NCBI GenBank assembly: GCA_016287985.1
Contig: JAEEXX010000008.1
Span: 1 to 34,072 of the forward strand
Length of the DNA: 34,072 bases
From: Candidatus Gastranaerophilales bacterium
GTDB taxonomy: Bacteria > Cyanobacteriota > Vampirovibrionia > Gastranaerophilales > Gastranaerophilaceae
Reading direction: 5' to 3'
Part shown: in pieces, positions 17,158-19,383 of the stretch
Layout: each line of letters opens with the position of its first letter
Numbering within the stretch: the stretch's first letter is position 1
The notes under the pieces: generated by a model
Told to the model about the DNA's origin: nothing
The model's input: only the letters and a program-made list of their open reading frames with translations
Database searches by the model: none
Program-made: the position numbers and the translations under genes

Positions 17158-17667
17158 ATGATAGAAATGAAAGTAATGGGTATAGCTCTTGATGTTAGGA
17201 CAAACTCACCAATCGTAGTGCTGCACGATTTGGAGAATAGAAAAGCTTTACCAATTTGGATTGGGTCGGCAGAAGCAAGTGCAATTATAAGATGTATAGA
17301 AGGCTTAGTCGTTGCACGTCCAATGACACATGATTTAATCACAAATATAATCAAAGAAACCGGATATAAAGTTGAAAAAGTCGAAATTAACGATGTTGAG
17401 AAAGATACTTATTACGCAACTATATTTTTGGTCAAAGGAGAAGAAACTCTTGAAATAGATTCCAGACCCTCCGATGCTATTGCTGTAGCAATGAGAGCTG
17501 CTGCTCCTATTTATGTTACGGCAAATGTACTTATGAATGGTTCAGTTTCAACTGATGCTGCGAAAGATGAAGAAGAAGCTCAAGAATTTAAAGATTTTAT
17601 TCAAAATATTAAACCTTCTGATTTTGAAAAATTAATGAAGGGTAAACACGAAGAATCCGACCAATAA
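17158..17667 (+). CDS. Bifunctional nuclease (BFN/DUF151) domain protein
   Basis: PIVVLHDLENRKALPIWIGSAEASAI...ARPMTHDLI...LEIDSRPSDAIAVAMRAAAPIYV. Confidence 0.85.
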   Translation: MIEMKVMGIALDVRTNSPIVVLHDLENRKALPIWIGSAEASAIIRCIEGLVVARPMTHDLITNIIKETGYKVEKVEINDVEKDTYYATIFLVKGEETLEIDSRPSDAIAVAMRAAAPIYVTANVLMNGSVSTDAAKDEEEAQEFKDFIQNIKPSDFEKLMKGKHEESDQ

Positions 17668-17722
17668 TAGAGCATAATACACCAAAATACATATTTTGGT
17701 GTACTAAACTTTTCTTTTTCAT

Positions 17723-17752
17723 GTAACTTTCTTTGTCATCAAAGAAAGTTAC
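17723..17752. repeat. Perfect hairpin, 13-bp stem, 4-nt loop
   Basis: GTAACTTTCTTTG-TCAT-CAAAGAAAGTTAC. Confidence 0.85.
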
Positions 17753-18040
17753 GCAAAGAAACTGCCGAGCTGAACTGCGCTCATTAATCAATTGTACGGC
17801 TCAACCTAAAGCTCGCAAACTCAGGTGCTACGCACCCTCGAACATGCTCGCTCTGTTATTGTTTCGCCTACATTGTTTATTCGCTCCGTTATGCTCGGAT
17901 GAGATAGTAAGTAGCGAGCGTGTCACGTAGTGACAATAGCGAGCAATATAGTGCGGGCTTGCCAGCTACAGCAATTCGATCTTATGCCCGAAGGGCATTG
18001 TGGTTATCCATTTTATCTGCGTGTTTTTCTTTTCTCTTTC

Positions 18041-18089
18041 GTACTTTCTCTTTTCTTTCACTTCGCAATTAAAAGAAAAGAGAAAGTAC
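18041..18089. repeat. Perfect hairpin, 18-bp stem, 13-nt loop
   Basis: GTACTTTCTCTTTTCTTT / AAAGAAAAGAGAAAGTAC. Confidence 0.85.
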
Positions 18090-18216
18090 AACAAATAAAA
18101 ATGAGATAAAAATATTTATACACCAAAATATGTATTTTGGTGTATTTGGATTAGATTTATTGTTTGAATAACTAAATATTGTTTGTTATAATTTGAAAAA
18201 TAAAAGGGAGAAATGT

Positions 18217-19383
18217 ATGAAGAGGAATACAAATTACGATAATCTGGAACAGAGTTATTTATTTTCAATAATCGGGAAAAAAGTAAATGAATATAAAAAA
18301 CAAAATCCTGATAAAAAGATTATTAGGCTTGGAATCGGTGATGTTACAAAGCCTTTATGCCCTTCGGTAATCAATGCTATGCACAAAGCTGTTGACGAAA
18401 TGGGAGTACAAGAAACCTTTAGAGGGTACGGCCCAGAACAAGGTTATGATTTTTTAAGAACCGCCGTTCAAAACTATTATAAGAATTTTAGTGTAAATTT
18501 AGATTTACCTGAAATATTTATATCCGATGGAGCGAAGAGTGATTTAGGCAATATCCTTGATTTATTTGATAAAAATAATACGGTTCTTGTTCCTGATCCG
18601 GTTTATCCGGTTTATGTAGATACAAATATTATGGCAGGCAGGGTGGTAAAATTTGTTAATGCTAAAGTGGAAAATAACTTTCTTCCAATGCCTGATAACA
18701 ATGTAAAAGCAGATATAATTTATATTTGTTCTCCTAACAATCCCACGGGAGCTGCATATAACAGAGAACAGTTGAAGGAATGGGTTAAATACTCACTTAA
18801 AAATGGAGCAGTCATTCTGTATGATGCAGCTTATGAAGCATTCATTGAAGATAATACAATTCCTCACAGTATTTTTGAAATAGAAGGTGCAAAAAATTGC
18901 GCTATAGAATTCTGTTCATTATCAAAAACGGCAGGCTTCACCGGTACAAGATGCGGTTATACAATAGTGCCGGAAACTATTGGAAAATTAAATAAAATGT
19001 GGGTGAGACGCCAAACCACAAAATTTAACGGAGTCCCTTATATTGTGCAAAGAGGTGCTGAAGCTGTATTTACTGAACAAGGTCAGAAAGAAATAAAAAT
19101 AAATATAGATTATTATAAGAAGAATGCCAAAATTATTTCCGATACTTTGGCAGAATTAGGGATTTGGCATGTCGGGGGGAAACACTCACCTTATATATGG
19201 CTAAAATGTCCGAATAATATGAAATCTTGGGAATTTTTTGACTATCTTTTAAATAATGCACAGGTTGTAGGTACTCCGGGGGTAGGTTTTGGTATTAACG
19301 GTGAAGGATTTTTCAGACTGACCTCTTTCGGTTCATATGAAAATACTCTTGAAGCAATGGAAAGATTCAAAAAGTTGTTCTAA
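18217..19383 (+). CDS. dapL: LL-diaminopimelate aminotransferase
   Basis: RLGIGDVTKPL, FRGYGPEQGYDFLR, ISDGAKSD, VPDPVYPVYVDTN, CSPNNPTGA, SKTAGFTGTRCGY; ATG at 18217 with AGGGAG upstream. Confidence 0.9.
   Translation: MKRNTNYDNLEQSYLFSIIGKKVNEYKKQNPDKKIIRLGIGDVTKPLCPSVINAMHKAVDEMGVQETFRGYGPEQGYDFLRTAVQNYYKNFSVNLDLPEIFISDGAKSDLGNILDLFDKNNTVLVPDPVYPVYVDTNIMAGRVVKFVNAKVENNFLPMPDNNVKADIIYICSPNNPTGAAYNREQLKEWVKYSLKNGAVILYDAAYEAFIEDNTIPHSIFEIEGAKNCAIEFCSLSKTAGFTGTRCGYTIVPETIGKLNKMWVRRQTTKFNGVPYIVQRGAEAVFTEQGQKEIKINIDYYKKNAKIISDTLAELGIWHVGGKHSPYIWLKCPNNMKSWEFFDYLLNNAQVVGTPGVGFGINGEGFFRLTSFGSYENTLEAMERFKKLF

Follow-up and report, generated by a model that had tools for sequence, protein, structure and literature searches.

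What is the hairpin-dense island of 471 bp that separates two genes near the middle of the window, by which we mean the whole stretch of 34,072 nucleotides analysed here? The upstream neighbour is a bifunctional nuclease gene (17158-17667), the stop codon of which lies 8 bp before the island, and the downstream neighbour is a class I/II aminotransferase gene (18193-19383). As set out below, comparison of sequences leads us to think that the island is probably a copy of an order-wide, non-autonomous, MITE-like element with paired triplex-pseudoknot modules at its ends. The features referred to throughout are as follows.

17676..18146, no strand assigned: whole island, probable MITE-like element, left arm of type A2 and right arm of type B1
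17676..17703, + strand: left terminal inverted repeat, a near-palindrome with its core at 17679-17702
17723..17752, + strand: A module hairpin, 13-bp stem (17723-17735 / 17740-17752) and 4-nt loop
17753..17762, + strand: A module third purine run, GCAAAGAAAC, matching the mirror of the stem at 8 of 9 positions
17824..17836, no strand assigned: interior hairpin GGTGC/GCACC
17913..17944, + strand: block made of AGCGAGC, hairpin TGTCAC/GTGACA and AGCGAGC
17984..17998, no strand assigned: interior hairpin ATGCCC/GGGCAT
18018..18021, - strand: B module tail CGCA, predicted to pair with loop TGCG at 18064-18067 (pseudoknot)
18026..18040, - strand: B module third strand, GAAAGAGAAAAGAAA, a perfect 15-nt mirror of the purine arm of the stem
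18041..18089, - strand: B module pyrimidine:purine hairpin, arms 18070-18089 and 18041-18060, loop 18061-18069
18119..18146, - strand: right terminal inverted repeat, a near-palindrome with its core at 18120-18143

An earlier note, made from the letters of this DNA, had described perfect 28-bp inverted ends that are themselves nearly palindromic. Both descriptions were borne out: the two ends are exact reverse complements over 28 bp, while the whole window, dinucleotide-shuffled 60 times, gave inverted repeats of at most 16 bp, and each end consists of two 11-bp arms around a CA/TG centre, 24 bp in all. The hairpins that it listed were all found where it had placed them, as was the repeated AGCGAGC (positions 17913 and 17938). 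The interior is GC-richer, as had been claimed (39.8% versus 34.8% for the window), and contains no credible coding sequence, the ORFs within the island reaching 65 aa at most. The island folds far better than its shuffles, both as RNA (z = -11.7) and as DNA (z = -11.1). No Rfam family matched above its gathering score in the window, and a permissive scan returned sub-threshold matches only, mostly to a low-complexity hairpin. Between the island and the aminotransferase gene, a sigma-70-like TTGAAT-17-TATAAT is present (window 18164-18192), and the real start of that gene is probably the ATG at 18218, not the TTG at 18193.

Dispersed copies and empty sites

The earlier note had proposed a MITE-like element or a large dispersed repeat, and searches of the genome of the window and of related genomes agree with that proposal. 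The island is not single copy: a similarity search of its own genome gave 33 local matches on about 15 contigs, with diverged relatives at no fewer than a dozen places there and also across the genus, and 28 of the 57 related genomes, all compared as draft assemblies, contained matches. Of 58 genomes in the genus, 27 contain the end motif RCAHCAAAATNNNNATTTTGDTGY (type-I ends), with up to 30 occurrences each, while the reversed control gave almost none. Elsewhere, too, copies are bounded by the inverted repeats: ends are paired 340-740 bp apart and, in about 20 other copies, are mostly reverse complements of each other, variable centre included. Of the two outcomes that the earlier note had named as refuting, a single copy and boundaries that fall away from the repeats, neither was observed. 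In two genomes (G080 and G016) many contigs terminate inside copies, so that recent multiplication is likely there. No match to the island was found in a plasmid collection, and none to the end pattern in viral contigs.

Presence and absence were then read at orthologous gene pairs. The nuclease-aminotransferase pair is readable in 29 species and only the genome of the window has the island; sister species keep both flanking genes without it. At a second site, the gap between pgsA and trmL, an element is present in G008 (362 bp), G009 (504 bp) and G020 (743 bp) and absent from G030, G005 and others, with different insertions in further genomes. G008, G009 and G020 share the pgsA-trmL flank, and the centres of their ends differ from one species to another while being matched, or nearly so, within each copy. 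Thus, the two ends of a copy evolve together in place. In G072 the two ends are apart, one at pgsA and one near aroE, as if a rearrangement through copies had taken place. Solo palindromes are also seen, as is a tandem arrangement (L161) whose middle end is shared, and both fit deletion and duplication between ends.

Several species have elements in the same conserved gene gaps, at aroE (L152, L201, L207) and at fabD-fabG (L155, L172, L193, L203), with arm types that differ, suggesting exchange of arms at old insertions. In three other loci (L243, L245, L247) the pgsA-trmL gap contains two small genes that look like a toxin-antitoxin pair of the HigB-HigA kind, and from these insertions the gap looks like an insertion hot spot. 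In G024, the same gap (L225) contains a small GIY-YIG-type ORF between inverted repeats of the ATTGCGAG/GGATTGC-like or TTCTGAA-like kind, as does L215:1463-1909; this unit looks like a further small mobile element, one that settles in intergenic sites of the same kind.

The arms themselves were sorted into types A1, A2, B1, B2 and C, a classification of our own in which the window is an A2-B1 hybrid. B arms were matched in 55 of the 193 genomes, and 17 of the 45 genera, of the order. A second end type, approximately AACATAAAATATGTTATT, carries similar arms in the genus of the window and in another genus (L002, L005, L009, L282, L317). Arms and ends are thus modular, and the module is not tied to one transposase. 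The element at L317, in another genus, also has a block similar to 17913..17944 (GCGAGC, hairpin, AGCGAGC).

Covariation within the end modules

Two features of the 17723-17752 and 18041-18089 hairpins had escaped the earlier note. Firstly, a third purine run lies on the centre-ward side of each hairpin and mirrors its stem. Secondly, the loop of the second hairpin can pair with bases beyond the third run. In the B module of the window, which as a whole spans 18018-18089, the 15-base mirror match of the third run was reached by 55 of 20,000 shuffles of that run. It gives 15 consecutive triplets of the A.A:T and G.G:C kinds laid down in the definition of intrastrand triplexes (ITxF); that definition also specifies a loop of 1-6 nt, whereas the B loop in the window has 9 nt (the A module loop has 4 nt).

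We asked whether the third strand follows the stem as the stem changes. In 52 distinct B-type hairpins from the genus, the third run at its best placement matched the mirror of its own stem at 11.12 of 12 bases, versus 9.35 for permuted partners (maximum 9.79 in 2000 permutations), and the direct-repeat match was lower, at 9.54. For the asymmetric tracts of this set, mirror beat direct 39 to 2. In a replication set of other loci, selected on purine content and drawn mostly from outside the genus, the match to the mirror of the own stem was 10.91 versus 9.85 for permuted partners (5000 permutations, maximum 10.30), and mirror prevailed over direct 29 to 3. Modules share ancestry, which makes the permutation p-values optimistic and overstates independence; the mirror-versus-direct comparison is less affected by this, though not immune. 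A-type arms, including the A tract of the window, are too short and too symmetric for the covariation test.

The pairing of loop and tail was examined in the same manner. In 110 distinct modules the loop-tail pairing score was 10.54, versus 9.05 for permuted partners (5000 permutations, sd 0.17, maximum 9.65); these modules had been pre-filtered by mirror score, a filter that leaves the loop and most of the tail untouched. The compensatory loop:tail types are GCG:CGC, CGG:CCG, ACG:CGT, GTG:CAC, GCC:GGC and GCTC:GAGC. Since the third strand would, geometrically, end beside the loop, the triplex and pseudoknot findings appear to support each other. That parts of the putative fold change together in evolution suggests that it really forms and matters.

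Does the module act as DNA or as RNA? Read on the inward strand, it follows the code of the purine triplex motif (A.A:T, G.G:C), which is known for DNA; read on the outward strand, it follows that of the pyrimidine motif, which RNA could adopt in the form of an H-type pseudoknot. The mismatches in the stems comprise 24 G.T and 27 A.C, some hairpins being counted on both strands, and show no strand preference. The "mobile structured-RNA cassette" put forward earlier is thus upheld in its strongly covarying structure, but RNA is not favoured over DNA. As an RNA element, the island would form the 3' portion of the transcript of the upstream gene, which it would stabilise or end. Its outward strand would run tail, U-rich strand, stem, loop, stem, a pseudoknot with the U-rich strand in the deep groove, as in telomerase RNA. 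This topology matches the outward strand exactly, the RNA fold is strong (z = -11.7), and of the 13 ends that face the 3' end of a gene, 7 lie within 13 bp of its stop codon. However, neither strand has the G.U bias that an RNA would lead one to expect, the modules occur in inverted pairs so that one is always wrongly oriented, and the cytosines of the third strand would require protonation. We regard an RNA element as possible but unlikely, and we lean towards DNA because the modules are inverted pairs beside the ends of the element. If the DNA reading is taken further, a single-stranded DNA fold combining purine triplex and loop-tail pseudoknot may have been kept by selection across the order as a transposon end-recognition structure. 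We put this forward tentatively and with more doubt than confidence; if true, it would define a class of transposons recognised through a triple helix.

The same data bear on a simpler account, in which template switching between quasi-palindromes leaves perfect hairpins and matched ends behind as side effects, with no selected function. Template switching would explain why ends stay matched in place, as they do at pgsA-trmL under different centres, yet it makes complements and not mirror repeats, and the third strand keeps to the mirror of its stem. We therefore consider it improbable.

How the element might move and persist

The observations drawn from comparison (dispersal, presence and absence at orthologous sites, matched ends, three-way mirror covariation and loop-tail covariation) can be joined in a single scheme. 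Just inside each short inverted end would sit a structured module facing inwards, consisting of a 13-23 bp pyrimidine:purine hairpin and a third purine strand that would lie alongside the stem in antiparallel orientation, forming a triple helix; in B-type arms, the tail would pair with the hairpin loop and close a pseudoknot. The modules would form when the element is single-stranded, in transposition or replication, and the pair may serve as end-recognition or end-protection structures for an enzyme supplied in trans, which would move the element. Insertions would survive in intergenic gaps, often a few bases past a stop codon, and the ends of old copies would be kept identical in place by conversion between both ends.

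Several properties are those of a MITE: terminal inverted repeats, a short body with no transposase gene, dispersal, and presence or absence at orthologous sites. The MITE-like reading is borne out to that extent. Two further features would prove a MITE proper, and the search for them gave neither: an autonomous parent sharing the ends was not found, and no target-site duplication was seen. About 60 loci with close end pairs had no transposase gene between them, and no consistent direct repeat flanks some 20 paired copies or a recent G080 copy; the empty-site gaps at pgsA-trmL and at the window locus are too diverged to define a junction. An outer motif in G080, GTAACAGGTCAGCAGAAT, was set aside: it mostly adjoins copies, as part of the end of that subfamily, and is on no gene-bearing copy.

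One candidate for the parent is an IS1595-type transposase, to which the ends would then belong. Outside the group, the sole match to the end pattern in GTDB species contigs is in Maribacter, shortly upstream of a frameshifted IS1595-like ORF, but this locus has no second end within 1.5 kb. The Maribacter sequence (L211:6967-7002) is a 36-bp palindrome with the same arms. IS1595 genes of the genus itself lack these ends, and their presence does not track element number: they occur in 5 of 65 genus genomes, are absent from the genome of the window, and none is flanked by the ends described here. We rejected IS1595 as the parent, and a MITE of this family is very improbable. Least probable of all is an invertible segment flipped by a tyrosine or serine recombinase between dif-like 28-bp sites (11-bp arms, 6-bp centre), which would account for inverted sites, matched centres and palindromic arms, but the elements disperse, also occur singly, in tandem or as solo palindromes, and vary in their arms within one genome.

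Comparison with known systems

The MITE-like element with paired end modules that we favour overlaps with several known systems. Bacterial MITEs such as Correia, Nezha and RUP (PMC10969869) are likewise short, gene-less, dispersed and mostly intergenic, with inverted ends and strong secondary structure. They differ from the present elements in that here no parent insertion sequence or target duplication was found, and in that the ends are near-palindromic and accompanied by paired, inward-facing candidate triplex-pseudoknot modules; the word triplex is absent from the text of that review.

The intrastrand triplex motifs PIT, BoxC and TMECO (Holder et al. 2015, PMC4666352) have in common with the present modules a strand that folds twice, as a hairpin and a third purine strand, and are also intergenic and multi-copy; they have been linked to local genome instability. 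Here, in contrast, stems reach about 23 bp with a varied order of A and G, the loop of B modules is usually 7-11 nt, while the search of those authors allowed 1-6, and the modules have a predicted loop-tail pseudoknot and sit, in inverted pairs, within a mobile-like element. For TMECO no association with mobile elements was found, the text of Holder et al. is without covariation or pseudoknots, and formation of the intrastrand triplex in vivo in E. coli was not supported (PMC4666352). In an unrelated bacterium (G063), the pgsA-trmL gap (L223) contains CCCTCGCCCTGTGGGAGAGGGTTAGGGTGAGGGG, a sequence near to the TMECO triplex consensus that the study gives for E. coli.

REP and BIME sequences are also short palindromes outside genes, alone or in inverted pairs, but the end sequences here, inspected by eye, have no GTAG/CGTC tag at the foot of the palindrome, and they enclose a structured interior of 300-700 bp. 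A further resemblance is in topology. Telomerase RNA and some riboswitches contain H-type pseudoknots with triple helices, which combine a stem, a third strand in its groove and loop-tail pairing. The modules share this arrangement, but their third strand is nearly as long as the 18-22 bp stem and matches it position by position, and they match no Rfam family.

MITEs and triplex motifs are known already, and the new part is the module inside the island ends. Nowhere in the open-licence literature searched did we see a triplex pseudoknot with covariation support described as forming the paired end modules of a mobile element. Predictions of intrastrand triplexes in the genomes of bacteria go back decades, and most of them start from fixed sequences. 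When a third strand stays with the mirror of its stem while that stem changes, evolution supplies a kind of evidence that lies beyond ordinary hairpin covariation, because the usual routes of copying and conversion make no mirror repeats. If the reading holds, it offers a testable natural triplex pseudoknot, raises the question of which enzyme reads the module, and would account for a large class of intergenic islands, dense in hairpins, that these uncultured bacteria carry.
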